Positions 8,785 to 31,490 of a stretch of DNA of 33,640 bases are shown here, piece by piece. The DNA is taken from positions 1 to 33,640 of the IMG/VR virus record IMGVR_UViG_3300025674_000186; one strand, written 5' to 3'. A program made the translations under genes and the position numbers. The DNA is from a virus. The notes below the pieces were generated by a model. That model made no database searches. It was not told the origin of the DNA and saw only the letters and a list, made by a program, of their open reading frames with translations. The first letter of the stretch is position 1. Every line of letters begins with the position of its first letter.

Positions 8785-9017
8785 ATGATGAAATACCTAA
8801 CTACGTTGCTTGGGTTCAATGTGAACCTGAACAATTAAATGAAGTTCGACAAATGTTTCCTGTCGAAAACTATGAGATTTTAATCGGAATTAAATCTAAT
8901 TATGATCCATTAACATGTGATGTTCACACCCTTAACAACCCACCAGCCCCTACATGGGGCGTAGAAGTTTGGAAAAGAGAAACAAATGGAAGATGTGAAG
9001 GACTATCTCCTAAATAA
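8763..9017 (+). CDS. Hypothetical protein, 84 aa
   Basis: Not recognised. An acidic, probably alpha/beta protein with a Pro/Trp-rich C-terminal part (NNPPAPTWGVEVWKRE). It overlaps the dCMP deaminase gene by 22 bases and the RNA polymerase gene by 32 bases, so it is translated within the same chain. No catalytic motif is visible. Confidence 0.65.
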   Translation: MQVYYKLDDEIPNYVAWVQCEPEQLNEVRQMFPVENYEILIGIKSNYDPLTCDVHTLNNPPAPTWGVEVWKRETNGRCEGLSPK

Positions 9018-11103
9018 AATTCGTGGTGAAGACTTAGGTGTCAAACCAAGACGTAACTTACAATTAATGCGTATGATTGACACAGATGGTGTTGATATGC
9101 TTGACTTCTTAATAGAAGACATGATAACATTCGCAAGAAAAACGATACAACGCTGTTTTAAGCGTAGTAAAACTGAGGGTGAAGCAGCAATTACTCAAGC
9201 TTCAATGGCAATCGGTAAATATATTATCGAAGGCTGGGATAGCACTAATGTAAACTTTAGAGACCATGTACGAGTAGGTGATTTAGTTATCGAAGGCTTT
9301 GTTATGTGTGGTTATTTAACAATACAAGTAGGCCATATGAAAAGCCGTAAGCCCGTTACTATACATGCTACTGATAAATGGGGTGAAATGGAGGCTATTG
9401 CTGGAAGAACTCTTTGTATTAGCGAAGAACCAATTGCGCCTATTACTAGTTTAATCCAAGCCAACGGTAGAAGTGTTATTAAAACATGGGATAAATCTAA
9501 AGAGTTTAAATTTATTAAACATCGTGAAGCCCCGTTTGTTAAAGCAATAGATAAATTACAATCAACTCGTTGGCTTATTAATGCTGATGTTCATAAAGCT
9601 ATCATGCAACAGTGGGATTCATTTATTAGTAATGAAGAATTTACTGGTGAAGATGAAAAAGAAAACGATAAACTATATCAACGTCAAGCCTCAAAGAACC
9701 GTGAGGTAAAAGAAGTAATGGCTATCGCAGCGAAATGGCTGCATAAAGAATTTAGCTTTTACATTGATGCAGATTACAGAGGCCGTTTATATTATGCAGA
9801 GCCTTTCTTTAACTTTCAAGGTTCAGATATTGCAAGAGGCCAGTTGTTATTTGCTAAAGGTAAACTATTTGATAGCACTGCTAGCTTCTGGCTTGGTGTT
9901 CATACAGCTTGTTCTTACAATCAGTCTTACAACATTGACGAGATCCCTGAATGGGTCACTACAGATTATCGTAGTGTACTTGAGCAAGAAGAACTCGATA
10001 CTATTTCTGTAGACAAAATGACACTTGAAGATAGAGCAATGTGGACTCAACAAAACATAGATAGCATAATAGAGTTTGGTGAACGCAAAGTGTTTATGCA
10101 TGAAGCAGAAAAGCCTATCTCGTTTTTATCGTGCTGTATCGAATGGTATAAGTATTCTCAGTGTAAAGGAGACTTCTATACTCAGCTACCTGTACCTATT
10201 GATGGCGCTAATAATGGTTGGCAACATTTAGGTGCTATGTCTAAAGATAAAAAGACGGGCGCTCTTGTTGGTCTTGTTCCTACTGAAATACAAAACGATT
10301 TCTATGTACAAGTAGCTAAGCGACTTACTCAACGTATGCCTGAATGGTTTGAAGAACGTCAAATGCCTATGAAACATATTCGTAAAGGTATTGCTAAACG
10401 TGGTGCTATGACTCGTGCTTATAGCTGTGGCCAAAAGAAAATGTCTGAATCTATGTATAGCGATTGTTACCAATATGGTTATACCGAAGAATATAATATT
10501 TCTACTTGGGATTGTGACGAGCTAAGTAATCAAGTTATTAGAGCAATTCAAGAAGTTTGTCCAGGCCCGTTAGATACTATGCGTTACTTACAAAGATTAG
10601 CTGAACAAGAAATAACTAATTGGTTTAAAGAATATGGCACAGATAGAGGCCGTGGAATTGAATGGATAACTCCATCTGGCTTTCCTGTTATATATGAATG
10701 TTATCGTACTCGGCCTGTTAAAGTAGACTGTTATGGTTTTAATACACCAACAGGAGAAATTCGCTTTAAACATGTTATCAGAGAGAAAACAGATATCCCT
10801 GATAGGCGTGGCTTTATGTGTGGTATTAGCCCTAACTTTGTTCATAGCATGGATGCTGCTCATATGGCTCTTACTGTAGCTAATTGGGATGGTGAATTTG
10901 GCGCTGTGCATGATTCATTTAATACACATGCAAGTGATATAGAGTTACTTATGAATAAAACTCGTAATGAGTTTGTATCTATTTATGATACAGAAAACTT
11001 TTATGATAGTATTCCTTTCGGAAGAGGCTATCAAGGCATTGTGCCTACAATCGGTACGTTAGATATTAAAAACGTACAAGATTCAGATTATTTCTTCTGT
11101 TAG
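8986..11103 (+). CDS. T7-like single-subunit RNA polymerase
   Basis: The 705-aa protein contains all the core motifs of the family. DxxGR is DYRGR (D263, R267), followed by FQGSDIARGQLLFAKGK. Motif A is DGANNGWQH (D406). Motif B is K467/K471 with MTRAYS (Y479). Motif C is VHDSF (D643). A hydrophobic foot ends in FFC, like the aromatic C-terminus of T7 RNA polymerase. It is about 180 residues shorter than the T7 enzyme (883 aa). D406 corresponds to T7 D537, so most of the loss is in the N-terminal promoter-binding half. Total size is close to the two-part N4 RNA polymerase II. It lies at the end of the left arm, next to the convergent structural arm, and probably transcribes that arm. Confidence 0.95.
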   Translation: MEDVKDYLLNKIRGEDLGVKPRRNLQLMRMIDTDGVDMLDFLIEDMITFARKTIQRCFKRSKTEGEAAITQASMAIGKYIIEGWDSTNVNFRDHVRVGDLVIEGFVMCGYLTIQVGHMKSRKPVTIHATDKWGEMEAIAGRTLCISEEPIAPITSLIQANGRSVIKTWDKSKEFKFIKHREAPFVKAIDKLQSTRWLINADVHKAIMQQWDSFISNEEFTGEDEKENDKLYQRQASKNREVKEVMAIAAKWLHKEFSFYIDADYRGRLYYAEPFFNFQGSDIARGQLLFAKGKLFDSTASFWLGVHTACSYNQSYNIDEIPEWVTTDYRSVLEQEELDTISVDKMTLEDRAMWTQQNIDSIIEFGERKVFMHEAEKPISFLSCCIEWYKYSQCKGDFYTQLPVPIDGANNGWQHLGAMSKDKKTGALVGLVPTEIQNDFYVQVAKRLTQRMPEWFEERQMPMKHIRKGIAKRGAMTRAYSCGQKKMSESMYSDCYQYGYTEEYNISTWDCDELSNQVIRAIQEVCPGPLDTMRYLQRLAEQEITNWFKEYGTDRGRGIEWITPSGFPVIYECYRTRPVKVDCYGFNTPTGEIRFKHVIREKTDIPDRRGFMCGISPNFVHSMDAAHMALTVANWDGEFGAVHDSFNTHASDIELLMNKTRNEFVSIYDTENFYDSIPFGRGYQGIVPTIGTLDIKNVQDSDYFFC

Positions 11104-11112
11104 GAGGTTATT

Positions 11113-11361
11113 ATGGAAGATAAAAATTGGCTTGCACAGACAGGCAGAAACTATTCTGATATAGACTTTAAAGAACTTGGAATTCCCGATGAGCTTATCG
11201 GACAAGAAGGATTTAATCGTGCTATGTTAGATCGAATGCACGCAGAAAATATGGCTGGATATATTGAAGACGGTATGTCAGAAGCACAAGCACGGTTTGA
11301 AGCAGATAAACGTAGAAGTATGGCTTTAAAAGCCGCAAAAGCTAACGGACTTAAATTATAA
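11113..11361 (+). CDS. Hypothetical protein, 82 aa
   Basis: Not recognised. A soluble, Ala/Met/Glu-rich, mostly helical protein. TAGGAGG directly after the RNA polymerase stop is one of the best ribosome-binding sites in the left arm, suggesting strong translation. It is the last gene of the + strand block, followed within four bases by the convergent terminator hairpin. Confidence 0.75.
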   Translation: MEDKNWLAQTGRNYSDIDFKELGIPDELIGQEGFNRAMLDRMHAENMAGYIEDGMSEAQARFEADKRRSMALKAAKANGLKL

Positions 11362-11364
11362 AAT

Positions 11365-11410
11365 AAAATACCCCACAAGGTTTCCATAAGGATTCCCTGT
11401 GGGGTATTTT
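11365..11410. terminator. Bidirectional intrinsic terminator between convergent arms
   Basis: A perfect 13-bp inverted repeat, AAAATACCCCACA (11365-11377) and TGTGGGGTATTTT (11398-11410), encloses a 20-base loop. T-rich sequence follows the stem on both strands (TATTTTTATTT on +, TATTTTATTTTAT on -). It lies exactly between the last + strand gene and the last - strand gene, so it can end transcription from both arms. Confidence 0.9.
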
Positions 11411-11413
11411 TAT

Positions 11414-14400
11414 TTAAGTAAATTGTGATCTTTTACGTTCTTCTTTTTTCAATTTATTTCTTCTTGCATCAGTTTCCACAATCATCTTATCAAGATCAGG
11501 TCTAATTCTAAGAATATCTATTGTTGCAAAGAAAAGCTGTTCAAAAAATTCAGCATCTACTTTAAAAGATTTATCACCTAAACTTTGATTAGGTTTTTCT
11601 GCTGCTAAACCACGCATTTGTTGTGCTGCTCTTTTAAATAATGCATTTCTTTCGTCTGTACTAATTCCTCTTACATCTGAGCTTATTATTGTTTTATAAC
11701 GTGGCGCTCCATTACTACCAATATTATAAAAATCACCTAAAGCTTTATATTCACCTTCTGTTCCTAAATCAAACATTTCACCTGTTTCTTTAGCTTGATT
11801 TATTTTAACTGTAATACGCTTAAGCATATCTTCAAATGAATCTTTTTCAGCTTTTAACATATTATATTTTTGATTTACTTCATCAAAAGTGCTATTAGCT
11901 GTTTGTTCTAAGTCTGTAAATGAATTAGCGTCACCAATAAATGCATCATAAATTTGCATTACCGTTGCAGTTGGATCACGTTTAACTGCTCTAGCTACGA
12001 CTAATTGCGCTATTGTAGCATCAATATTTTGTGTAGCATTAACTGCAGCTTGATTACGAAGCTTACTTCCTAAATCAAAAGAAGTATATTCTCCTTCACC
12101 TAAATATTTAATTGCTGCACTTGCAGATGCTGAAGGCACTCGCTCTTTTAATGAAATATCTGCAGCAAAACGTTTAGGACTTCCAGGTCTATTGCTTTGA
12201 GTTCCTGGGCCAAAGTTAAATTTAACTTGTCCTGTTGCAGTAATAGGCATATTACGTATTCCTGCAAGCATTGGGTCTTTATCTACATATTCAAAACCGC
12301 CTGACTGAACAGGTGCGCCATTTGCGCCTACAGTTACCATAATTTCATTAGCAAAATTATGCGCCCGACCAATACGTTTAGCCATTTTAGAATGTTCTAA
12401 TGCACCGCCTAATCCTAATCGTAATCCTTGTTCAATATGTTCTCTTAATTCTTGAATAAGTGTAGCTTCTGTTACACCATTTTCAATGATAACATTTTCA
12501 AATAATTCAGGATTATCGTTAATAAATTGCCTAGCATGTTGTTTATGATGTTTAGGATCTTTACCATAAATTGAAGTCATAATAGGTAATTTCATTAATT
12601 TTTTAATTAAGATTGGATTTGCTTTTATAGCATTAAATATATCACCCCAATAAAGTTTTCCTACTTCACCTGTTTGACTTGCCATGATAATAAATACATC
12701 ATCACGAATATCACCTTCTAAAGCTTCTGCTTCTTCTTTAGATAACGTAGCTAAATCTAAATCGGTTTCATAAGTATCTCCAATTTTTTGATATAACACT
12801 CCACCTTTTCTTAACAAGTTATCAACACCCATTTGGTAGCCTTGTATTACTGCTCCATTTGAGTTGCCATCAACTTCAGCTTTAACTCTTGTTCCAAACT
12901 TACCACCATCAGGAGTAATTAAGTAACGAGCTAATTCATGCAATCCATCTAAAGCAAAAAAGAAAGTATCATTATCATGATGCTGTTTTAAAAATGCTTG
13001 CAAATCTGGTGTAACATTTAATGGACTAGCGCTTGGTATTTTTGCACCAGCAGCAATAGCTTGTTGTACCCTTGTATTATGCTGTACATTATTTTGTGTA
13101 TATCTAAGTAATTGTCTACCCCATTTAGCTAAACGCATTAAAGGTTTACCTGTATTAGGATCTATTTCAGTTAACTCATCACGCAAAGCTTTTAATTGAT
13201 CGGCACGAGTCATTTTGTCTGCGCCTAAAATAACACTTCTTGCTATAACTCTAAAGAATCCTTCTTCTCTAGTAAACTTTTGGTAGCCTTTATCTCCTGG
13301 AGCTTTATTTCCATTACTTTCTGCTTTTTTAATAGCACTATTTAACGCTCTTCTTGCACCGCTAACTCCATCTTTTCCTTGTGCTGATTTAGTAATTAAT
13401 ACAGGCTCTGCACCATGAACTAAAAATCTAGCAAGTTTATTTGCTTGATAATTTAATTCATCGTTAGTAATCATTAGCCTTGTTGAGTTATTAATTGTAG
13501 TGTAACCATAATGAAATGTGGTGTTTACACGATTAAAACCATCTGCAAGTGTTTCTTTTCTTTCTGATAAATGATTTTCAATAATTTGTCTAGTATTAAA
13601 CTCTGCTGCTTCTTCAAAAGTTCTGTAAGGTCTTTCTCTTTGACTTCTTACATCAAAATAAGAGCCTAACATTGCAGGAGTTAATAATGGGTTTCCATTA
13701 CTATCTACTTTACTTCCTTTATCTTTGTAATCTTTTAATAGCTGCGCTCTTTTCTTTTGAAAATAAGCATTACTTTGTTTTGTTATATCTGAAAAAACAT
13801 TATTTGATGTATATTGTGTTCCGCTTGCTAATACTCCAGAATAAAGAATAGCAGAATGCATTGGTACAGTATGTGTTCGGCTTGCTAATGCATCAACCCC
13901 TTCTTGTACTATGTTTACACCATTTACTTTAACTCTATTTTCTAAGGGTAATGGTCCACCTGTATCTCTTTTTTGTACAAAAGCAGCAGCACCTCTCATG
14001 CGACCGCCCTCTGTTTGGACTAATGATACAGGCTTATCTCTAGTTGCAGACATCCCTAGCTTAGCGCGAATACCTTTTCGCATTGCATTAAGCTTTGCAT
14101 CTCCTGCTCTTGTAGTTTTAAATACAATTTTAGTATTACCTTCAGGTGTAGTGATTGTTTGTTCTTGAAATAAATTATTCCAGTTTGCACTAGCAAGACC
14201 TTGTAAAACTATTTCACCTACAATTCTATGTTCATCATCAGTTAATTTTGACTTATAACCATATCTATCTGATGCACCTGTAAACAAAGCATTAGGGTCT
14301 TGCATTTCAGGATCTGTCATTAATCGTTCTGCTAAACGAGATATCCCTGCGCCTAACACACCTCTATCTAATGCATTATCGTACTCTCTATCTGTAAGTG

Positions 14401-15289
14401 TATCTGTTTCACTATTCATTAATAGTGTTTTATTAGATATTTCTAATAGAGTAGCAATCATAAATGCTGCCCCTGCTTCTTCTCTTAATCCTGAATTAGG
14501 GTCTGAATTATCTTTAAGCAAATTTAATTTACGATCATTCTTTAAGGCAAAATTAAAAGTATCTGAATTCCTAAACAAAACGCCTTGCGGATCACTATCC
14601 ATTTCACTAGCTGATATGTTTTCAGTATCAATTTTATTTCCAAAGATTGTTAAACTTCCTGCGTCTGAATCAAAACCTTTGCGAGCAAAATTAACCATAT
14701 CACTAAAGTTTACAAACCCGTCTTTCTCACCGATTTCAGCCTTAACAAAGCTATCAATTTCTTTAGCTAATTGATCTCCTCCTGTTTCTTGAGTTAAGAT
14801 AGCACGAGGAGTAGCCGCTTCTTGCGTTAATGTTGCTTCAGCTGCTGCTTGAATTTCTGGTCTATTTAATTGACTAATTCTATCTGTTTGAGGATCTGGA
14901 AACAAACCTGCTTGCTCATACTGACGCATACCTGCTGCTTCTAATTCATCTACCATTGCTTCTGGTACTTGTATATCAGGAAAAGGCTGTATGCTTTCTT
15001 GTGGTCCAAGGTCTGCACGCTGAGTTCCTACAAACGTTTCTGCGCCTGTAGGATCCCCTGTTATCATTGTGTCTTGTAATTCTTCAACTGGTGTTTGAAC
15101 AATAGTTTCAGTTGGCGTGTCTAATCTTTCTTTTAAAGCTTGCTGGTCTGCCATTTCAGCAGCCATTGCTCTTGTTTGCTCTAACTCAGATTGCATAGAC
15201 TCTTGATCACGAAGTCGTTGATCGGCTTGCCTTCTTTGACTATAGAAGTCTGTACCAGCATTTCTTGATGTTACTATTTTCTGGGCCAT
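11414..15289 (-). CDS. Putative virion RNA polymerase (N4-type, compact), 1291 aa
   Basis: The catalytic motifs of single-subunit RNA polymerases are visible. Motif A is VDGNSNG (D807, compare T7 D537). Motif B is KKLMKLPIMTSIYG with K896, K900, M904, T905, Y908, G909 at exactly the spacing of T7 R627, K631, M635, T636, Y639, G640. Motif C is QIYDAF (D1115, compare T7 H811-D812). Before motif C, NIDATIAQLVV aligns with the SMDAAHMALTV of the T7-like enzyme in this window. Around 600-630, NNSTR (R604) then NYQANKLARFLVHGAEP aligns with DxxGR and its downstream strand, though the Gly is lost. D807-K900 spacing is 93 against 94 in T7. The first 160 residues are Gln/Glu/Thr-rich and disordered-looking. 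As the last gene of the structural arm, beside an ejection-type protein, it is probably packaged and injected, as in N4 (whose vRNAP is about 3500 aa). Packaging is inferred. Length and neighbours could alternatively suggest a plain internal virion protein, but the motif set argues against that. Confidence 0.8.
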   Translation of the reverse strand: MAQKIVTSRNAGTDFYSQRRQADQRLRDQESMQSELEQTRAMAAEMADQQALKERLDTPTETIVQTPVEELQDTMITGDPTGAETFVGTQRADLGPQESIQPFPDIQVPEAMVDELEAAGMRQYEQAGLFPDPQTDRISQLNRPEIQAAAEATLTQEAATPRAILTQETGGDQLAKEIDSFVKAEIGEKDGFVNFSDMVNFARKGFDSDAGSLTIFGNKIDTENISASEMDSDPQGVLFRNSDTFNFALKNDRKLNLLKDNSDPNSGLREEAGAAFMIATLLEISNKTLLMNSETDTLTDREYDNALDRGVLGAGISRLAERLMTDPEMQDPNALFTGASDRYGYKSKLTDDEHRIVGEIVLQGLASANWNNLFQEQTITTPEGNTKIVFKTTRAGDAKLNAMRKGIRAKLGMSATRDKPVSLVQTEGGRMRGAAAFVQKRDTGGPLPLENRVKVNGVNIVQEGVDALASRTHTVPMHSAILYSGVLASGTQYTSNNVFSDITKQSNAYFQKKRAQLLKDYKDKGSKVDSNGNPLLTPAMLGSYFDVRSQRERPYRTFEEAAEFNTRQIIENHLSERKETLADGFNRVNTTFHYGYTTINNSTRLMITNDELNYQANKLARFLVHGAEPVLITKSAQGKDGVSGARRALNSAIKKAESNGNKAPGDKGYQKFTREEGFFRVIARSVILGADKMTRADQLKALRDELTEIDPNTGKPLMRLAKWGRQLLRYTQNNVQHNTRVQQAIAAGAKIPSASPLNVTPDLQAFLKQHHDNDTFFFALDGLHELARYLITPDGGKFGTRVKAEVDGNSNGAVIQGYQMGVDNLLRKGGVLYQKIGDTYETDLDLATLSKEEAEALEGDIRDDVFIIMASQTGEVGKLYWGDIFNAIKANPILIKKLMKLPIMTSIYGKDPKHHKQHARQFINDNPELFENVIIENGVTEATLIQELREHIEQGLRLGLGGALEHSKMAKRIGRAHNFANEIMVTVGANGAPVQSGGFEYVDKDPMLAGIRNMPITATGQVKFNFGPGTQSNRPGSPKRFAADISLKERVPSASASAAIKYLGEGEYTSFDLGSKLRNQAAVNATQNIDATIAQLVVARAVKRDPTATVMQIYDAFIGDANSFTDLEQTANSTFDEVNQKYNMLKAEKDSFEDMLKRITVKINQAKETGEMFDLGTEGEYKALGDFYNIGSNGAPRYKTIISSDVRGISTDERNALFKRAAQQMRGLAAEKPNQSLGDKSFKVDAEFFEQLFFATIDILRIRPDLDKMIVETDARRNKLKKEERKRSQFT

Positions 15290-15291
15290 AA

Positions 15292-18200
15292 TTATTCTCC
15301 GTCTCTAAAGGCTCTCGGTACTTTTAATTGTGCAGCATCAGTTAATATCCCTCTTAAAACTGGGCTTGCAGAAACTACAGGTGTTATCTTAGTGACATCT
15401 TTAAGGAAGCCTTCGTAATCACCTTCTGCTACCTCTGCAACTGCATCTTTAGCTGTATTTAATATTCTTAATGCTGGCGCACCGCCTACAGTTTCACCAA
15501 ACAATCTTTCTACTAAGTTTTCTCCACGATCTTGATACATAGGTGCTGCAACTTGAAGTATACGTTCACCTGTACCTAGAATACCTGATGACATTAATGC
15601 ACGTTGAACTAGCTGTGCATCATTAAGGTATGGCGTACTGCCTCCAAACTTAATATAATCTTTAAGCCATTGTGAAGCACCTGCAACCCCCATCATAGTA
15701 ACCATAAGTGCAAATGTGTTATATTTCATTTTAGGACTACCATTTTTTAAATAGTCATTCCAAAGTCGAGGAACAATATTAGCAGTAAAAGTAGAAATAA
15801 AACCATTAAACTGTACAAATAATTGAAAATGCGGATCTTGATAAAACAAAGGTCTATTGTAGGCTTGTGGATTCTGAATACGATCATTAACAAAATACCA
15901 TGTAACAGTATCTAATTGATCATTTACTTCACTTCTTAATTCTACAATATCAGGATCTTGATTTCCATCATCCATATATTTATCAAATATTGTTTGACCA
16001 TTAGCATCAACATCAGGAAACATTATTGCTCTTTGAAGTTCAATAAACCTTTCTACATCCATACCTAAGTCAACTAATTGACGATAAACATCTAATTGAT
16101 CTTGATTATATGGTTCATCTTCTTTTTTAGCCATGAGTATGCGAATACGGTCACTGACAAAACCTGAAACCGAAGCAGCTGCCATTGATCTTTGCAACTG
16201 CGTAATCCCTGCAATACCTGTCCATTTAAAGAAAGCTTTTTGAAACCATGCTTTACTAACATCAACTTCTCCTAATCCATATCGTGTTGCTACTGTAGCG
16301 TCATCAGGAAATAAACCTGCTGCAATAAGATTTTGAACAGATTGGCGATATATAGGCGCTTTAGGTGCGTTTGCTAATGTCGGATGTACTTTCATCTTAG
16401 CAATATCTTTTAATCCACCTACCATTTCACCTACAAAAGTATGTATTGCATCATTAATAGCTTTCATTCCTGTTCCTTGGTATATTAACATAATAAACTC
16501 AGGAAAAGAACTAATTGCTGCAAAAGGCAAACCAATAATTGTAGTAAAGAAAGCACCTGTTCTTTGGAATGCTGCTAGCTTTCTATTTTTAATTGATTTA
16601 AAATTACCTGTTGCTGCATCAATTATGCTTTTAGTATGATAAGCCATTTCAGCTATTTCTTCTTTAGTTAAACCGTCTGCTTCCATTTCAGCAAACAATT
16701 GATCTAAGTGTTTGCCTCCTGCCCCAAAGTATTCTGTATAAGCTGCATACTTTGCTGTTTGATTAACTGTATTCATTGCATTTTGTAATATATTAGTATT
16801 AGCAAATTGTTCATAGCCAGGTTTTTTAGATAACGACTTAAGACCGCCCTTACCTGCTCCAGGAATATATTCAATTCCTTCAACAACAGAAAAATCAGTA
16901 GCATCTTCATTATTAGAAATTTTATTATATAGCATTTCTAATTCTGCTTCAGTATACAATTGATTTCCTTTATCATCAGTTGCATTTTTACGCATCCATT
17001 TAAACCATGCATCACGATTATTTCTTACTTTAGACCAATCCCAGCTTTGTTCATTTAACCATGAATCAGGATCATACTCTAAGTTTTCTCTATTTAAACC
17101 TTGATTTACATAAATACTATTCTTTAAATTATATTCATCAAATGCAAACTCTCTTAATTCAGCTATCGTTGCTTCAATTTGATCTGCATATTTTAAAGTC
17201 TCAGGACTTAATTGATTGCGATCACCATTAACCGCTGAATATTCGCGTATCATATCTGAAATTTTTTGTGAGTTTTTAACTCTATCAGACATTCCAAATC
17301 TTTTAAATACTCTTTGAGGATTTATTTTAGTTAAAAATTCAGCCCTGTATTTACTTGTTTGCGACTCAACATCTCTTCCTGAATATAATCTACCTAAAGG
17401 TTGACCAATTAAAGCATAGAGCTTTCTAGCTGCTGCAGAGCGCCTTAATAATTCAGGTCTAAACGCTGTTGTTGCTGCAGCTCGATATAACTCAGGTACA
17501 TATTTACTAGGATCTTTTAACTTAGTCCAAAAATTACCTCTTAATTTTTCACCAGCTGCTGCACGATTGCTTGCATCTGCACCGCCTTCTTTCTTTTTTG
17601 TTTTAGTGTTAAGATCTTTTGTAATATCATATATATTACCTTGCGGCCCTATCTCCATTCCTAGTTTACCAAACTCATTAAGCCGATCTACACGACCTAA
17701 CATTAAGCCTTTTTGCATTGCAGCACGATCACCTGCTTCAATGATTTGTCCTGCTGTACCAAAAGTAGCACCTAATGTTCCACCTGCAACTGCAGCTTGA
17801 GCAAGTATATTTGAAAATTCATTTGGATTAAAGTTTTCTTTTAATCCACCTTCTGATAATATATTAGAAGCAAGATAGCCTGTACCCTCTTGTCCGACTT
17901 CAGTAGCTAATTCACCAATGCCACCACGAGCAGAGCCTCTAAATATGTTTTTAATAATTGCACTATTATTAACGTGGTCTGAAGAAAAATTACCTATGCC
18001 TTCAATAGCGCCTTTGATTACTGATTTAGTTTCTTTTTTAACTAGCTCTTTAGCTTGTGCAGTAGATAATCCTCGTTCTTGTCTTAAATATTTATATACT
18101 GCTTGACGACCATTTGCAGTTAACAAAGCTGACGGAGGCATAATTGCAGCCATACCAAGACGATCTAATACTGCCATTGCAGTACCTGCCATCATAGCTC

Positions 18201-19305
18201 CTGCCGCTTCTGGTCTACCTTTTGGGCCTTTAATATCATTCCATACATTACCTGAATGTACACCAAACATTGAGCCATAAGCAATAGGCACACTTGCACC
18301 TAATGTTACTGGAGACAATACATGCCCTGCTGTAAGTGTAATTAAATAAGGCGCTGACATTGCCATATTATTAGTCATAAATTGCCATGCATCAAATAAA
18401 CCATCAACATCACGGTAATCAATATTACGAAGTATTGGCGATCTAGATAAATCTTCTTTAGCTATTTCAACATTTTCTGCACCCCAATTTTCAAGCGTTT
18501 CACTTCCTAGTGTTACCCCTGCTAACTCTGCAAAGCCTGCTAATGCAGTTGTCATTCCTTTCCATCCAGTGTTCCATGACTCAGTCATTTGATTATAGGC
18601 AACACCTTCTCTTGTTCTATCGCCATATCTAAAATCAATAGCGCTAAAAGGAACACTACGGCTATCATACTGTCCGTCTAATGCAACATTATAAGCTTTA
18701 CGATAGCCTTCCTCTGTTGCTAAGTTATACCCCTTTTGATCTGCAACTGTTTCAACTACTGCTTGTAAATATTCTTTCTCATTTAATGCAGCTTCTTTAA
18801 ATAAAACAGGTGTTTCTTTTACTTCTTGCAGTTCTTCATTTACTATATTAGCATAATCTCGTTTGCCACGTAGCTGTTCTTTTAACCTACCAGATTCAGC
18901 TGCTCGTTGTCCTTCTTCATCTGTAAATATATTTGTATCAACAGCGCCTGAGCGATATAAGGTATTAGTTAAATCTTCACCAACTGCATTTTGAATTCTA
19001 ACAAGACGACGACCAAAACTATCTACCTCACCTGTATCTATAATTTTATTAAAGCCACCTGTGCTTGCAATTTTAGATACTGCTGATGTTGTTTCTCTGC
19101 CTCCAAGTTGACCTCTTATAAAACGAGGTACTCCATCTTCAACAATTATTTTATTTGTTTCAGGTGCGTTATAACCTACAATACGGAGGTCTTGACCGCT
19201 TCCATCAGATATTGTATCTGCATCTACCCATTTGTAAGTCTTATTATCTGCACCTTGAAACTCTGCAAACTCAACATCTACAAATGCATCATTTTTTTCA
19301 GCCAT
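15292..19305 (-). CDS. Large internal virion protein with N-terminal nuclease (SNase-like) domain
   Basis: At 1337 aa this is the size of T7 gp16 (1318 aa) and occupies a comparable late position. Residues about 20-125 look like a staphylococcal-nuclease domain. VDADT (D28, D30) and LRIVGYNAPE supply R41 and E49 at the family's eight-residue spacing, DSFGRR supplies R99 (the R87 equivalent), and GEDLTNTLYRSGAV follows as in the family. One calcium ligand (D40) is replaced by N46. Hydrophobic, Gly/Ala-rich segments near 315-350, 368-395, 485-510, 913-943 and 1198-1218 could insert into host membrane during DNA ejection. It sits two bases upstream of the putative virion polymerase gene, with AGGAGG before its ATG, downstream of a promoter-like element. 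It is probably ejected with the genome. The nuclease activity is inferred. Confidence 0.75.
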   Translation of the reverse strand: MAEKNDAFVDVEFAEFQGADNKTYKWVDADTISDGSGQDLRIVGYNAPETNKIIVEDGVPRFIRGQLGGRETTSAVSKIASTGGFNKIIDTGEVDSFGRRLVRIQNAVGEDLTNTLYRSGAVDTNIFTDEEGQRAAESGRLKEQLRGKRDYANIVNEELQEVKETPVLFKEAALNEKEYLQAVVETVADQKGYNLATEEGYRKAYNVALDGQYDSRSVPFSAIDFRYGDRTREGVAYNQMTESWNTGWKGMTTALAGFAELAGVTLGSETLENWGAENVEIAKEDLSRSPILRNIDYRDVDGLFDAWQFMTNNMAMSAPYLITLTAGHVLSPVTLGASVPIAYGSMFGVHSGNVWNDIKGPKGRPEAAGAMMAGTAMAVLDRLGMAAIMPPSALLTANGRQAVYKYLRQERGLSTAQAKELVKKETKSVIKGAIEGIGNFSSDHVNNSAIIKNIFRGSARGGIGELATEVGQEGTGYLASNILSEGGLKENFNPNEFSNILAQAAVAGGTLGATFGTAGQIIEAGDRAAMQKGLMLGRVDRLNEFGKLGMEIGPQGNIYDITKDLNTKTKKKEGGADASNRAAAGEKLRGNFWTKLKDPSKYVPELYRAAATTAFRPELLRRSAAARKLYALIGQPLGRLYSGRDVESQTSKYRAEFLTKINPQRVFKRFGMSDRVKNSQKISDMIREYSAVNGDRNQLSPETLKYADQIEATIAELREFAFDEYNLKNSIYVNQGLNRENLEYDPDSWLNEQSWDWSKVRNNRDAWFKWMRKNATDDKGNQLYTEAELEMLYNKISNNEDATDFSVVEGIEYIPGAGKGGLKSLSKKPGYEQFANTNILQNAMNTVNQTAKYAAYTEYFGAGGKHLDQLFAEMEADGLTKEEIAEMAYHTKSIIDAATGNFKSIKNRKLAAFQRTGAFFTTIIGLPFAAISSFPEFIMLIYQGTGMKAINDAIHTFVGEMVGGLKDIAKMKVHPTLANAPKAPIYRQSVQNLIAAGLFPDDATVATRYGLGEVDVSKAWFQKAFFKWTGIAGITQLQRSMAAASVSGFVSDRIRILMAKKEDEPYNQDQLDVYRQLVDLGMDVERFIELQRAIMFPDVDANGQTIFDKYMDDGNQDPDIVELRSEVNDQLDTVTWYFVNDRIQNPQAYNRPLFYQDPHFQLFVQFNGFISTFTANIVPRLWNDYLKNGSPKMKYNTFALMVTMMGVAGASQWLKDYIKFGGSTPYLNDAQLVQRALMSSGILGTGERILQVAAPMYQDRGENLVERLFGETVGGAPALRILNTAKDAVAEVAEGDYEGFLKDVTKITPVVSASPVLRGILTDAAQLKVPRAFRDGE

Positions 19306-19322
19306 TAAAACCTCCTGTAAAT

Positions 19323-19378
19323 AAAAAATCCCTAAGGGATCCTCCCTATAAGGGTGTATTATGGATCTCTTAGGGATT
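19323..19378 (-). terminator. Intrinsic terminator (minus strand) enclosing a promoter
   Basis: A 16-bp inverted repeat with one mismatch: AATCCCTAAGGGATCC at 19327-19342 and GGATCTCTTAGGGATT at 19363-19378. On the - strand it is followed by six T residues (19328-19323). It lies just after the 974-aa gene and before the 1337-aa gene, so incoming late transcripts would meet it. The loop holds the promoter-like element described separately, giving a stop-and-restart arrangement. Confidence 0.75.
19338..19367 (-). promoter_or_regulatory. Candidate promoter for the phage T7-like RNA polymerase (P2)
   Basis: Read on the - strand, the gap contains ATAATACACCCTTATA followed by GGGAGG. This resembles the T7 promoter (TAATAC near the upstream end, TATAGGGAG at the start) with a spacer two bases shorter. 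It matches the element at 31461-31490 over nearly its whole length. The predicted start at the GGG (19346) would produce a short leader ending in AGGAGG before ATG 19305, driving the SNase-like internal protein and the putative virion polymerase. Confidence 0.7.
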
Positions 19379-19381
19379 AAA

Positions 19382-22306
19382 TTATCTTATTAGATTATTT
19401 TTCTTACCTATTCCAATAAGCCTTTCTATCTCATCAGGCTCAGTTTTACTTGCCCATAGAGTAAATGCGCTCCATTGTTTTTCAGGTTCTTTTTCATCAA
19501 ATCGATTTGCTGCATCAGAATTAAATTTAGCAGCTTGTTCTGGATCTCCAAACTTAGAATTTAAAATTGCCCAAGCTTGATAAGTACCCTGCCATTGATT
19601 ATAATAATCTTGAGCATAAGTTAAATAAGTACCATCTGGTTGTTTAATTCTTTGCTTTGGACTCTTAATTGTCATACTACGTTTAATTGCGTTATCTAAT
19701 TTACGCATATTAACTGGTGAAGTTTTACCTACAATTTCCATAGGTATACCTGTTAATACTTCACGAGTTTGCATATCAATATAGTCACGAACATTACGTG
19801 GCTCAATAGAAGACTTCTTTTGACTAAATGCAATTTTAGCTTTAATAAAGTCATCAATTCCCGCTTGAACTTTTGTTGCTAATGCATCTGCATCATTAAT
19901 TGAAACTCCATTTTGCCTAAGTATTTCTCTATAACGAGTTTCTGCTCTGTCTCCAATATCTTTTTCATTAAAGTAAACACGATCATCAAATGATTTTTTA
20001 TCTTTAGTTCCTTGAAAAAGACCTGCCTCGCTATTTCTTTGTTGAGAAGCTTCTTTAGCAAAATCAGAGAAATTCTTTTGCATAGCACCACGCCCTTGAA
20101 CGGACTCATCCCATGGTTCTATAAATCCTGCAAGGCTTGCTACCGATCTTAATTTACCTTCATATTCGACATAATCTAGTTTATCATCGCCTTCAAACAC
20201 TTGCACTTTACCTATTCCAGGAAGATAAGCGTTGCCTGCAAGTCCTTTTATTTTAACTCCTGCAGGTGCTTTCTTTTGAAGAACAGTATAATCTCTTCCC
20301 CTGCCTGCTTCAAACTCTTTGCGAGACTCTTCTGTAAAGTCTAAGTAATCATCATCACGAATATCTTTTTGATATTGTGCTTCAGCTGCTTCTATCCGTC
20401 CCATATATGTTTTAGCACTATAAGCAAATGAAGCGTTATGATCATACCCCATAAGACGACTACCTGTATAAACTAATGCCATACGAGCAAGTTCTTTTGG
20501 ACTAAACAAATCACCAAATGCATCTTTAAAAGCATTTATCGCAACTTTTTTCATGTCTGGAGGAGCGTTATCACCTTTATCTTTGAGGTCATCCTCATTT
20601 CCTGGAGGTGGTTGATCTTTTGAATCAACTGAATCTGCTACAGTTTTAAGTGTACTATATTGAGTTGAATTAGTTACACCTGAATCCTCAAGTTGTTCAT
20701 CTTTTGGTTCTTTAAATTCACCTGAGTCAACATCATAAGTTTGATTTTTTGCAGCTTCTTTAATTACATCTTCATTTTCATTTGCAATTTTTTCAGCATG
20801 ATCATCTCTTATTTTAGTAACTTCTTCTACTTTTGCCAAAGCAGCTTTATGAGCATTTATTAACTCACTAGAAACAGGTAATCCTTTTGCCTGATTATCT
20901 TTAATTTTATTACCAATTTTGTCAGCTTCTGCTTGTCTAGCTTTTACTTGACCACTATTAAAATTACCTACTAATCTATCTTTATCAGGCAGCATATCTA
21001 ATAATGTTGCGTTTGGAACTCCAGGCGCATCTAATGGGACAGGTACACCAAGAAATTCTGCAGGATACATAAAGGCTCTTTTAATTTGAGTTTTTGTTTG
21101 ATCCGATGGAGTTAAATAAGATAAAAAACTTTCATCTTCTTCAGGCTTTGGTGGCATCTGATTTACAGGAGGCACACCACGAGTACCATCATCAACACGA
21201 GGTCTTGCTTGTTCTAACATTTGAGCATCTGATACATCATCACTAGCTTGTGCTTTACTAATTAAAGAAAAACCTGATCCTTGATCAGCGTCTGCAGTTG
21301 CATAAGGCGTTTTAAATAATTCCATTTCTCTAGCTCTACGTGCTTCAAGTCCTGGAAGAACTTCACCACCTGCCATACGAAATTCTGAAGCTTCTTTTTG
21401 AAAAGTGTCAAAGTCACCTGCATTAAGTGCAGCACGAGCTTTACTTACTTCAAATTGAGGACCACCAATATTAAACAACAATGATTTAACTGCTGTTTGT
21501 TGATTAGGATTTAATTCAACATCAACTAAATTATTATAATCATTTTCTACAACTGCAATATCTTTTATTAATTGTTGATTTGCCTCTGCATCAGATAATT
21601 TGTCACCCATTTTAACACCGTAAGTGCTACCATATCCTATGGTTGGAACACCTGCTGGGTCTCGATAAGCTTCATTTCGAAGGCCTTCTTCTTCTTTTAA
21701 AAATTCAGCAAGCATACCTGTATTAGCATACCTAGGTATTTTACCGCCATCTGAGTTATACAAAGAACTAAAGTCCCAAGTATTCTTACGACTACTACGG
21801 TTAGGCTTGCTTTCTTCTAGCTTACCAAGATACTTTTGACCACCGCCTGATCCTTTACGTTCAGTAAATTGACCAATAGAACCATCTTGCAATCTTCTAT
21901 AAACAATTCCTGGAGGAGCAGGCGGAAGCGTTACTGCATCAACTGCACTTTGGTACAGCCCTGAAAGACCTGAAATAAATCCACCATCGGATTCATAAGT
22001 AGGAATAGGTCCACCTTGTGCCTTTTGTATCATGCGACCTTCTTCGTTCATTTGGTCAATCATTTCTTGATTGCCTGGAATACGAGAAGCCTCCGCATTA
22101 ACTACATTTTCTCCAGGAGTTAGCCATGCAGGTACTGTATCAGTTCCTTTAGGATCTCCAGGATGATTACTAGTGTCTGCACCATTATATCCATCAGGCA
22201 TATCAGGTATCATCATCATCATTGGTACAGTAACTTCTGGCTCAAAGAACTCTATGGAGAACATGTTACCATATCGGTCTTTATTAGTAAGACTTTTTAG
22301 TTTCAT
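19382..22306 (-). CDS. Internal virion protein with embedded GH24 lysozyme domain, 974 aa
   Basis: Residues about 198-335 form a T4-type lysozyme (GH24) domain. E207, D216 and T222 in EEGLRNEAYRDPAGVPTIGYG have the spacing of T4 E11/D20/T26, and the domain ends with GLEARRAREMELF, as in many muramidases. Upstream, LTPGENVVNAEA (about 63-74) matches a motif recurrent in phage tail and minor structural proteins. The C-terminal two thirds are charged and helical without a recognised domain. It is probably a virion-associated murein hydrolase that opens a local path through peptidoglycan during entry, the role of the transglycosylase in T7 gp16. It is flanked by the CFI-box protein and by the promoter/terminator gap. 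AGGAGA precedes the ATG. Confidence 0.8.
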   Translation of the reverse strand: MKLKSLTNKDRYGNMFSIEFFEPEVTVPMMMMIPDMPDGYNGADTSNHPGDPKGTDTVPAWLTPGENVVNAEASRIPGNQEMIDQMNEEGRMIQKAQGGPIPTYESDGGFISGLSGLYQSAVDAVTLPPAPPGIVYRRLQDGSIGQFTERKGSGGGQKYLGKLEESKPNRSSRKNTWDFSSLYNSDGGKIPRYANTGMLAEFLKEEEGLRNEAYRDPAGVPTIGYGSTYGVKMGDKLSDAEANQQLIKDIAVVENDYNNLVDVELNPNQQTAVKSLLFNIGGPQFEVSKARAALNAGDFDTFQKEASEFRMAGGEVLPGLEARRAREMELFKTPYATADADQGSGFSLISKAQASDDVSDAQMLEQARPRVDDGTRGVPPVNQMPPKPEEDESFLSYLTPSDQTKTQIKRAFMYPAEFLGVPVPLDAPGVPNATLLDMLPDKDRLVGNFNSGQVKARQAEADKIGNKIKDNQAKGLPVSSELINAHKAALAKVEEVTKIRDDHAEKIANENEDVIKEAAKNQTYDVDSGEFKEPKDEQLEDSGVTNSTQYSTLKTVADSVDSKDQPPPGNEDDLKDKGDNAPPDMKKVAINAFKDAFGDLFSPKELARMALVYTGSRLMGYDHNASFAYSAKTYMGRIEAAEAQYQKDIRDDDYLDFTEESRKEFEAGRGRDYTVLQKKAPAGVKIKGLAGNAYLPGIGKVQVFEGDDKLDYVEYEGKLRSVASLAGFIEPWDESVQGRGAMQKNFSDFAKEASQQRNSEAGLFQGTKDKKSFDDRVYFNEKDIGDRAETRYREILRQNGVSINDADALATKVQAGIDDFIKAKIAFSQKKSSIEPRNVRDYIDMQTREVLTGIPMEIVGKTSPVNMRKLDNAIKRSMTIKSPKQRIKQPDGTYLTYAQDYYNQWQGTYQAWAILNSKFGDPEQAAKFNSDAANRFDEKEPEKQWSAFTLWASKTEPDEIERLIGIGKKNNLIR

Positions 22307-25206: not shown

Positions 25207-25370
25207 CGTGCATTCACCTTTGCTTGTAAGTCTGCAAAATTAGTAGCTGCTTTAATATCTTTAATTAAAGCAGTATTTTCACTTTGTAATTGATTAATTA
25301 AACTAATTAACTCAAATAGTGTAAAATTTAAAGCAGAATCTTCAGTAATTGGCGGATTTTGAATTGCCAT
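25203..25370 (-). CDS. Small hypothetical protein, 55 aa
   Basis: A short ORF between the tail-nozzle gene and the GNAT-like gene. The ATG (25370-25368) has AAAGGAGG upstream inside the end of the nozzle gene, and the TGA overlaps the next ATG by the ATGA pattern. The product is mostly helical with a leucine/isoleucine-rich segment (LFELISLINQLQ), compatible with a short coiled coil. Start and stop overlaps and the strong ribosome-binding site support coding. Function is unknown. Confidence 0.65.
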   Translation of the reverse strand: MAIQNPPITEDSALNFTLFELISLINQLQSENTALIKDIKAATNFADLQAKVNAR

Positions 25371-28300
25371 TACTTAGTACCTCCTTTCTTTACTCCTAAT
25401 TGAAAACCAGAAATATTCCAAGCTTTATCATTAGCTCCTGTATAACCTGAGCTTGTACTTGAATTAGCATCATCAATTCTATAATTTAAAAATCTACCTG
25501 TAATTCTTAAATCTGTTTTGTATGAGTCAGCAACCGTAAAAGCATTTACAGTAAGTTTATTTGCTTTTGCATTTGACTGTGTATTATCTTCTTCTGCAGT
25601 TAAATAAGCGAGTTCACCTGAATTATTAGTTGCCCTTGCTCTAATTTGCAAAGTTGCTCTTTGTGGTTCGCCACCTACTGTAGTAATAGTTCCACCATCA
25701 GCCCATACTGCCATGCTATTCAATGTTTCAGTATCAAAATTAGGTGTAATACTTAGCTGTTGACGTTCTACATAAGATACATACGGTGTTCCTGCAAAAT
25801 CATATCCAAGATCTGCTGCTCTAATACGATTAAATAACACTCCATTTGTAAACCCACTTTGTGCAAAAATAGGAAATAATTTATTAGGGTTAGTTTGATT
25901 ACTAGCCCAAGATCTTACGATATCAAATGTAGTACTAATTGTAGTTCCTGTTGTGCTTTGAGTAGGGCTACTAGCTGCTACTGTAACGCCTTCGGCAGAA
26001 GCAGTTAAAGTTGCTGTATCAGGTGCAACACTTGCTGGTATTACTTCTGTAGCAGGACTAAATGCAGTTACATAATTAGCACTAGAACTAAATTGACTAG
26101 GACTAATTGTAATTGTTGTAGGCGCAGAAGCACTATCTGGTGTTACAAGCAATGCATTATTTGTACTAATTTCAGCTAGTGCTGCTAATAAAGCACTCTG
26201 CATTGTAGATTCAGTGCCATTAGGCTTTGCTAATTCTGTTGCATCTTGTGTTTTACTAGGATCATAATACGCATTAAGATAATCTGCTGCAGTTGTATGG
26301 CTAGTATCACCATACGTACTATCATTAGCTGCAGGAGTAAAGTTAGGATCTAATAATCGTCCTGGACCTTCTCCATAATGTCTATCAAACAAAACACTAG
26401 TTCCTGTTCCTGTATTTACAGTAATTGTAACTCGTGTTAATTTAGCAAAAATAGCATCAACACCATCAGTTACTGAAATGTCACTACCAGTAGAATCTGT
26501 TATTAATGGCGTAACTGTTGTTCCTGTTCTAGAATCGCCTTGCGCTACTGTATAAGCAAATGCACCAGTTATTGCTTCTCGATTTACTGAAGTAAAAGTT
26601 AATACTTCATTTGTACGAGATACAGTAAAATAAGTTGTATCTGTCCAAGCAGTTTCTAACGCTGTTGCTATTTCAGTAGCAGTTATTTCTTCTACATTAG
26701 TAGGCGAAGAACCAGAGTCAGGATCAAATGCTGCAGTGCTATTAAAGTTAACAGATATTGCATTACCTACAGGAGGCGTTAATGTAATAGTATCAGTTGT
26801 ATTATGTGCTGCTCTACCTGCTCTTGTTTGAGTAGAAGTAAATGTACTTGTGTTAAATCCAGTTGGTAACGTACCAGAACTACTTATTGCAATTGCAAAA
26901 TTATTATTATTTATTCCAACTGCAGCAGCAGTAAAAGTTGTAATTCCTGTACTTGTATCTGCTACTCCTACAAAATCACTTGTATTTGCATTAATGTGAT
27001 CTTTAATACTAGTTTGAATACTTGCTCTAGTTAACGGTGTTGATGCATCTGGACTTACTAACTCTAAAGTTGTAGTTGAAGTATCAGGATAAGTTATTGT
27101 AACTAAAGGAAAAGGAATAGAATTATCTATTCCTGCTTGAATTACAGATTGCCCACTAGCAAGATTTCCACCAAATTGAGTTTCAGAATAATTTGTACCT
27201 TGATATGTTGTTGAAAACGTAACAGTTATAGGGCTATGGTTGCCACCTTTTACTGAAGTAAGTTGTGTTCTATATGCAAAAGGAGAAGGATCTTCTATTC
27301 TTACTTGATAGATTTGATCAGCATGTCCATCTTTAAAAACATTAAGTTGTTGTAATTTAGAAACAACATCTGTTTGAATTTGATTAGTGTTTGTAAGATT
27401 TTTTGCAACAGTAATTGTTTCACTAAATGCTGGATGAATTCCGCTTGCTGCTGGTGCTGACAATGTAATTGAAATTGCTGGGCTAAGCGCTGCTGTAATT
27501 CCAAATACACCTATTCCTGTAACTGTAGATGCAATAGTAATATTACTTGTTGAACCACTTCCTGATACTGCAAAAGTAGAAGCACTAAATGCACGAGGCC
27601 CAGGAACATCTGATGTTAATGTAAGTACATTAGATGACGCTGTTGCTGTAAAATCAGCTAATGCATTATTTGCATTAATGTAATCACGAACTGCAGCTAC
27701 AAATTGTGTCATTGTAATTGTAGCACCATCTGCATAACTTGTTCCAAGTATAGCACTAGCAGGAAAACTAACACTACCAATACTGCTATCACCGTTAATA
27801 ATTGCACTAGCACCACCATCAAGGTGTGTAGTTTTATTACGATCATAAGTAAATGTAGTAGAAGATGGAAAAGTTAACGTACTTGCTGCATTAACAGTAT
27901 TAGGCCCACTATCTCCAACAAATTGAAAATTAACAATTTCTTTAATATCAGTTGTAAAATTACTAAAAGTTGACATTGATATTGTTTTAATAGCTTTAGT
28001 GCCTATTGTTTTCTTTGGTGTTTTACCATTAATAGTTACTGCTTGTATTTCATGTTTACCACGATTAGTATAACCTGCATTTCCACTATTACCTGTTGCT
28101 GCAATAGTTGCTGTAGGAATACCGCCACCTTTAATTGGCCCAACATCTCCTGCTGCAACTGCATCAAGGTCTCTTATTGTCCAAGTGTTATCTCTATAAT
28201 TCCAAATAAGTGCTTCATCACATTCACCTCCAGTAGAAGCTAGTGTTGGATAACAAATCCATATTTCTTCTTCTTGGTGGTTTTGGAGCGTAAACAATTG

Positions 28301-31445: not shown

Positions 31446-31490
31446 AATATATAAATACGTTTCTCCCCGTATAAGGGCGTTTTATATATT
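31446..31490. repeat. Inverted repeat around candidate promoter P1
   Basis: Perfect 10-bp arms AATATATAAA (31446-31455) and TTTATATATT (31481-31490) are extended by ACG/CGT after a single unpaired base, with a short CCC/GGG inner pairing. The right arm includes the stop of the lysozyme gene. No T-run follows on the - strand, so it is a weaker terminator candidate than the one at 19323-19378. The promoter-like sequence occupies the loop and right arm. Confidence 0.6.
31461..31490 (-). promoter_or_regulatory. Candidate promoter for the phage T7-like RNA polymerase (P1)
   Basis: Read on the - strand, the gap contains ATAAAACGCCCTTATAC followed by GGGGAGA. It matches P2 (19338-19367) as ATAA, A or T, AC, G or A, CCCTTATA, an extra C, then GGGAG. 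Such near-identity between two intergenic gaps 12 kb apart, both upstream of late genes, supports a specific promoter. Predicted transcription begins in the G-run (about 31468) and leads to AAGAGG and ATG 31431 of ribonucleotide reductase. Confidence 0.7.

Follow-up and report, generated by a model that had tools for sequence, protein, structure and literature searches.

A phage-polymerase promoter in the loop of a conserved hairpin: a candidate terminator-promoter cassette ahead of two late phage genes

In the late region of an uncultured phage, a promoter for a phage single-subunit RNA polymerase lies in the loop of a long hairpin, in the gap before an SNase-like gene and a virion-RNA-polymerase-like gene. 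The promoter and the surrounding hairpin are both real and conserved. We interpret the gap as a compact terminator-promoter cassette, in which a late promoter for the phage's 705-aa RNA polymerase would sit within the loop of an intrinsic terminator, and put the probability of this reading at roughly 0.6. It draws on the sequence, its conservation, the covariation of the hairpin arms, the promoter family and the gene context, from which we infer the polymerase that reads the promoter, the termination, the start site and the effect on the genes downstream.

Under this reading, polymerases that had started further upstream, for instance at the sister promoter at 31469, would copy both arms of the hairpin; their RNA would fold into a stem of mostly 12–16 pairs ahead of a U-rich stretch, where most of them would stop. 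A polymerase starting at 19346 would produce RNA without the 5′ arm, in which only weaker hairpins could form, either between the first bases and the start of the 3′ arm or by folding of the 3′ arm on itself. Since this RNA forms only weaker hairpins, most polymerases that start at the promoter would pass the U-rich stretch and continue into the SNase-like and virion-RNA-polymerase-like genes, which would in this way obtain a separate transcript whose 5′ end is defined.

The gap and its neighbouring genes

The window, meaning the whole stretch of DNA analysed, corresponds to a linear phage record in IMG/VR, 33,640 bases long and probably a fragment. Early genes, including those for a DNA polymerase, a primase/helicase-like protein and the 705-aa T7-type RNA polymerase, occupy the + strand as far as 11361; the late genes are on the − strand and extend from the right end down to 11414. 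The relevant features are as follows.

8986–11103, + strand: gene for the 705-aa T7-type RNA polymerase, the presumed reader of the promoter (PF00940, E 6.6e-59)
11359–11416, no strand assigned: hairpin at the convergent early/late junction, T-rich on both strands, a presumed terminator used as a comparison case
11414–15289, − strand: gene for the 1291-aa single-subunit RNA polymerase, virion-RNA-polymerase-like (assigned from homologue matches and motifs)
15292–19305, − strand: gene for a 1337-aa protein of a virion protein family with an SNase-like N-terminus, the first gene after the element
19311–19316, − strand: ribosome-binding site AGGAGG of the SNase-like gene, outside the hairpin, as read from the sequence
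19319–19328, − strand: T-rich tail TTTTTTATTT, immediately 3′ of the stem, its first two T shared with the arm
19327–19342, − strand: 3′ arm of the outer hairpin, GGATCCCTTAGGGATT, defined by its pairing with the 5′ arm
19341–19346, − strand: predicted start (+1 G at 19346) with initial GGGAGG, from alignment with related promoters; overlaps the 3′ arm by two bases
19347–19362, − strand: promoter ATAATACACCCTTATA, up to −1, for a phage single-subunit RNA polymerase; motif score 31.5, the best in the window
19363–19378, − strand: 5′ arm of the outer hairpin, AATCCCTAAGAGATCC, beginning 3 nt past the stop codon of the upstream gene
19382–22306, − strand: gene for a 974-aa protein with a phage lysozyme domain (PF00959, E 3e-34), adjoining the element on its upstream side
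31464–31485, − strand: second late promoter of the same family, score 29.5, before a ribonucleotide reductase gene and 12.1 kb upstream of the element

The element lies in a gap of 76 bp that separates the lysozyme-domain gene from the 1337-aa gene and reads, on the − strand, AATCCCTAAGAGATCC-ATAATACACCCTTATA-GGGA-GGATCCCTTAGGGATT-TTTTATTT, followed by AGGAGG and the ATG. An earlier note on this DNA had placed a 16-bp hairpin with six T on the − strand at 19323–19378. Read on the − strand these coordinates are right, and the six T are present at 19328–19323, followed by ATTT, but the stem is not perfect: 15 of its 16 pairs are Watson-Crick and one is an A·C mismatch. The 20-nt loop of the outer hairpin contains an inner 4-bp hairpin (CCCT-TAT-AGGG). 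As RNA the element folds at −26 kcal/mol (z −3.24), and 1 of 200 shuffles folded equally well. Three inverted repeats of like quality were found in the window (in the SNase gap, at the convergent junction 11359–11416, and within a gene at 19712–19769), and at least one was present in 24 of 100 Markov-shuffled windows. The inverted repeat alone therefore proves little; the element stands above chance because it is conserved in nested form before the same gene in 15 other records.

A standard terminator scan, which permits loops of 3–8 nt only, did not list the element, nor did a promoter scan list a sigma-70 promoter in the gap, and no Rfam family matched in the window at the gathering threshold. 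Control of translation by the hairpin was considered and rejected, as the ribosome-binding site of the window lies outside the stem.

The 1337-aa protein matches phrog_6958, a virion structural protein family (E 3.4e-21), and this copy has no Pfam match. Its SNase domain is visible as a motif, with a weak Pfam match (E 0.005) in 1 of 12 homologues. The copy of the 1291-aa protein in the window is also without a Pfam match; it matches only phrog_414, weakly (E 2.4e-4), and tblastn returned no match for it in the phage collection. Among 25 homologues, three match phrog_2206, 'virion RNA polymerase' (best E 3.9e-11), and six match phrog_414. On the strength of these matches and of the conserved motifs DGxQNG, KxPLMExSYGK and VHDA, read by eye in the family alignment, we assign the protein as a single-subunit RNA polymerase. 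Profile searches against solved structures gave eight hits for the polymerase-like family (E 0.048–0.55), none of them a polymerase and all taken as chance, and no hits for the SNase-like family. Profile matches and homologues bear out the earlier identification of the downstream pair as an SNase and a polymerase gene, the latter being virion-RNA-polymerase-like. Both genes probably encode virion proteins, and both products would be injected. They had also been called the two largest injected proteins, which needs correcting: the largest late ORF, at 25370–29668 (1432 aa), is neither of the two. The phage seems to possess two single-subunit RNA polymerases, the 705-aa enzyme among its early genes and the virion-type 1291-aa enzyme among its late genes.

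The promoter and its family

A promoter matrix was built from related sites and used to scan both strands of the window. Two sites scored 31.5 (19362, − strand) and 29.5 (31485, − strand), both in late-strand gaps; the next best site scored 9.4, and the best score in 40 shuffles was 10.7. Four related records (G004, G015, G016 and G017) have a family site with the same orientation as the nested one, 11.3–11.9 kb upstream of it and ahead of a gene with a similar N-terminus. Across the relatives, family sites are found before an early gene, a 541-aa gene, and reductase-like, SNase-like and polymerase genes. Exact copies of ACRCCCTTATAGGGGNG were sought in IMG/VR, with 43 hits; judged by their flanks, 13 were nested elements of the SNase gap, 16 were phage promoters without nesting, and the remaining 14 were taken as chance or other elements.

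The site has the layout of a T7-type promoter, with an A/T-rich stretch at −17 to −13, a T/A-rich stretch at −4 to −1 and a G-rich start (CATAATACACCCTTATA GGGAGG), and its short motif recurs at the starts of transcription units in a genome that encodes a polymerase of this type. By analogy with T7-type promoters, transcription would start at 19346. The earlier description of a T7-like promoter in the loop holds in so far as the site is conserved and belongs to a family used elsewhere, but the motif is that of a clade and not the T7 consensus. A simple T7 promoter was accordingly rejected as a candidate, since the element has 2 bp fewer separating TAATAC from TATAGGG and the clade has a consensus of its own. 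The core is probably read by the 705-aa polymerase. In 17 of 18 related records, some of them distant, this enzyme is 75–92% identical, which fits with the hardly varying promoter core.

The promoter might conceivably serve the other polymerase. The promoter of the N4 virion RNA polymerase is a conserved small DNA hairpin with a 5–7 bp stem and a 3-nt loop, and an N4-type promoter for the 1291-aa virion-type polymerase would use the CCCT-TAT-AGGG dyad as a hairpin in single-stranded DNA. A virion-RNA-polymerase-like gene is indeed present, and CCCT/AGGG can form with a 3-nt loop. However, the inner stem has 4 bp and does not persist through the family: the second promoter of the window (CCCTTATACGGG) has it broken, and the ...CCCTTATAGGAA/GGAG sites have only a shortened version. 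Family sites are found on the late strand too, the A-rich upstream stretch and G-rich start suit T7-type promoters, and conservation is high in both the 705-aa polymerase and the promoter core. We regard an N4-type promoter as very improbable.

Nesting in a hairpin is peculiar to the SNase gap. The flanks of the 15 SNase-gap sites form arm duplexes of −19.1 to −26.2 kcal/mol, compared with −3.0 to −13.9 for 44 other family sites, the latter being those that score at least 23; 11 of the 55 sites outside the SNase gap scored below 23 and were set aside after inspection. At the 31485 site of the window the duplex is only −9.8. Family promoters at other genes are therefore not nested in a hairpin, and a general rule that promoters of this phage lie in inverted repeats was rejected, as arm duplexes elsewhere are weak. 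Duplex values of −18.0 to −37.6 were found at five of the set-aside sites: four lie in GC-rich repeats of iteron-like type (L034, L056, L022 and L035) and the fifth in L021; another, the L053 site before the 541-aa gene (−3.4), is probably a real promoter.

Two further observations concern the family. The second late promoter (window 31446–31490) is flanked by AATATATAAA and TTTATATATT, probably by chance in AT-rich DNA; the AT-rich repeat around the 31469 site is absent at four related sites. In addition, the 17-base promoter pattern matches the GC-rich contigs L017, L020, L022, L034, L035, L045 and L056, where it belongs to a different element, with a core ACACCCTTATAGGGG and contig-specific flanking repeats (GTGACG, TGTCCG and GTCCCC types). 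In L034 and L035 this element lies near ORFs that by eye resemble a helicase or primase, and it is perhaps a prophage replication origin.

Conservation of the nesting and covariation of the arms

A relative of the 1337-aa protein is encoded at 36 loci, of which 34 were examined; L109 and L124, which begin inside the gene, were omitted. The nested element is present at 15 loci, a short terminator-like hairpin alone at three, and neither at 15, with one locus having no upstream DNA. The 15 nested loci are on 15 contigs and the window is additional, making 16 phage records. At L094, L095 and L098 the gap had at first been ended at an alternative start codon, and the promoter-site scan revealed the full element. 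In all 14 nested elements tested, the window included, the SNase-like ORF is the next long ORF. The earlier note had staked its proposal on conservation in related genomes, and the nested element was found in these 15 other records. The loci that have it are the closer relatives, at 44–68% identity in the best segment against 27–32% for the others; the exception is L123, which at 48% identity in the best segment is nevertheless without the element. The 15 loci with neither hairpin nor promoter have a short gap and belong to distant relatives.

The arms were compared in 14 elements, L003 and L099 being omitted since their arms duplicate those of L002 and L089. They pair in every element, over 12–16 pairs in all except L015, which has 10, and the stem contains an internal mismatch or bulge in 10 of the 14. 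Between genomes the arms vary in sequence and length, and within each genome they pair, a pattern of compensatory changes. The mean arm duplex was −20.25 kcal/mol with the arms' own partners and −14.4 (sd 0.9) when the 3′ arms were re-dealt among the elements; none of 100,000 permutations was as good, and in 10 of 14 cases the arms had no better partner than their own. The stem is thus stable (−26 kcal/mol in the window) and, by its covariation, selected as a stem, as would be expected of a terminator.

This covariation also bears on the idea that the promoter is real and the outer hairpin is a 3′-end or mRNA-stability structure, or the remnant of an old terminator, with little effect on the passage of polymerase. 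The poor U-tract in 8 of 14 elements would suit that idea, as would the fact that distant relatives do without the hairpin. Set against it are the strength of the arm covariation (0 of 100,000 permutations) and the finding that other promoters of the family have no hairpin, and we consider it improbable.

At L102, L103 and L104, the three distant relatives with a hairpin alone, a short terminator-like hairpin with a T-rich tail, judged by eye, precedes the SNase-like gene. A promoter-like site of the family, ACCCCCTTAAAGGGG, lies instead within the last part of that gene, some 100 nt ahead of the polymerase gene (L102 10145, L103 9225, L104 8776). It is as if the terminator and promoter functions were placed apart in these genomes.

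Transcript folds, termination and the T7 precedent

RNA arriving from upstream was predicted to fold at −23.6 to −28.5 kcal/mol and RNA started at the promoter at −4.6 to −9.7 (14 elements). In the former, arm-arm pairing is the best fold in 13 of 14 elements, L015 preferring another. In the latter, when pieces cut one base after AGGG were folded up to the tail, the first bases paired with the start of the 3′ arm at 15 of 15 loci (−2.3 to −5.4 kcal/mol). Once the tail and leader were included, that fold was best in 6 of 14 elements, folding of the 3′ arm on itself in another six (the window, L005, L028, L038, L039 and L050), and other folds in two. Because the 3′ arm folded on itself adjoins the tail, promoter-started RNA might be partly stopped as well in these six. 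The earlier note had supposed that a new transcript would not form the hairpin: the long one is indeed not formed, but a short one is possible.

These folds suggest a more elaborate form of the cassette, which we put forward tentatively and think doubtful: a self-insulating promoter cassette of about 60 bp, present in 16 records, in which transcripts would be sorted by their 5′ history through a mutually exclusive terminator/anti-terminator pair. RNA from outside would have the 5′ arm and terminate; RNA born inside would lack it, and its first bases, GGGGA, would pair with the beginning of the 3′ arm sooner than the arm could fold on itself, and so confer protection. In this position the cassette would provide a separate late transcript for the virion-type polymerase and its neighbour. 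The protecting hairpin is the best fold up to the tail at 15 of 15 loci, but with tail and leader in only 6 of 14.

The tail contains TTATTT in all 14 elements and takes the form ATAC(T/C)TTATTT, a poor U-tract, in eight of them; in the window it is TTTTTTATTT. It resembles the tail of the convergent-junction hairpin, which matched a fixed pattern at 13 of 14 loci, all 13 with a TTT[AG]TTT tail; statistically, the comparison draws on how seldom TTT[AG]TTT occurs (31 times on the late strand). L093 gave no match to the fixed pattern, and L001/L093 lacks that hairpin though the nested element is present. Unlike the varying arms of the nested element, those of the convergent junction are constant in sequence (CACAGGGAATCC..GGAAACCTTGTGGGG), and that sequence may itself be recognised by something.

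For termination we count the T-rich tail placed right at the stem, as at the convergent junction, and the short terminator-like hairpins that stand alone in the SNase gap of three distant relatives. Against it we count the poor U-tract in 8 of 14 elements, the loop of 20 nt where intrinsic terminators have small loops of 3–8 nt, the weaker hairpins that promoter-started RNA can form, the other fold preferred by upstream RNA at L015, the 15 distant relatives with neither hairpin nor promoter in the gap, the absence of the convergent hairpin from L001/L093, the insensitivity of some phage polymerases to class I terminators, and the existence in phage T7 of nested promoters associated with RNase III sites.

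The last point makes processing by RNase III a serious alternative, since T7 phi6.5/R6.5 and phi13/R13 share the nested geometry. On that view the hairpin would be a processing site around the promoter; transcripts from upstream would be cut in the stem and not ended there, those from the nested promoter would lack the stem and stay uncut, and the downstream genes would then be carried on both kinds of transcript. As in the nested element, a phage-polymerase promoter lies between complementary arms at phi6.5 and phi13, and upstream transcripts carry the hairpin while new ones do not. The T7 arm duplexes (−22.9 at phi6.5, −19.0 at phi13) are about as strong as those of the nested family (−19.1 to −26.2), compared with only −4.5 to −16.2 at the 15 remaining T7 promoters. 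The legend to Figure 1 of PMC5592923 gives both R6.5 (strong) and R13 (weak) as sites of RNase cleavage. In a comparable position, phi13 precedes the T7 internal virion protein genes 13–16, and TTTTCTTA comes after its downstream arm as well. An internal mismatch or bulge, as seen in 10 of 14 stems, would likewise suit RNase III.

The likeness has limits. The best fold at phi6.5 is the nested hairpin, but R6.5 consists of two helices around an internal loop, whereas the nested element is a single helix of mostly 12–16 pairs, disturbed by no more than a mismatch or small bulge, and has a T-rich tail; the promoter sequences also differ. The likeness to phi13 is looser because its 5′ arm folds best with the promoter start region and not with the downstream arm. 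The two points counted above for termination, the tail of convergent-junction type and the hairpins of the three distant relatives, likewise argue against processing. We judge RNase III processing to be rather unlikely, though it is the main rival to the terminator-promoter cassette.

Other known phages offer partial parallels to the cassette. Apart from these sites, PMC5592923 describes a single T7 terminator that acts on the phage's own polymerase, T-phi. There a T run directly follows the hairpin, as in our element, but the loop is small and without a promoter, in contrast to the 20-nt loop with a promoter found here. The arm duplexes are −6.7 to −13.1 at nine SP6 sites and −12.7 and −13.8 at two Syn5 sites, and the Syn5 sites do not lie between strong arms. 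The promoters given for the Syn5 polymerase, ATTGGGCACCCGTAAGGG (PMC3950665), and the VSW-3 polymerase, within TTAATTGGGCCACCTATAGTA (PMC9624206), resemble the nested one, as far as those excerpts go, in having a C-rich block followed by a T/A-rich stretch at the start, and differ from it in its A-rich upstream region and its core, ACRCCCTTATAGGGG. An excerpt of the VSW-3 report describes the Syn5 polymerase as insensitive to class I terminators and the VSW-3 polymerase as stopped at a class I-like stem-loop (PMC9624206). Roseobacter phage CRP-7 (MK613349), the best-placed named phage in the polymerase search at 32% identity, has a similar gene order, but the corresponding gap (gp35/gp34) is 16 nt long, and no match to the promoter pattern with up to two mismatches was found. 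The words promoter and terminator are absent from the main text of the CRP-7 paper (PMC6918029).

Overall, the interpretation offered in the earlier note is partly supported. Among the literature matches listed, in which subscription journals are thinly covered, there was no description of a promoter inside a terminator loop. If the terminator-promoter cassette is as we propose, it would be a natural and very short part, made for a phage single-subunit polymerase, that both halts transcription arriving from upstream and initiates a new RNA whose 5′ end is known. It would represent a second way, beside the RNase III sites of T7, of separating virion genes from upstream transcripts, and would provide a promoter motif and a candidate polymerase for a group of uncultured phages.
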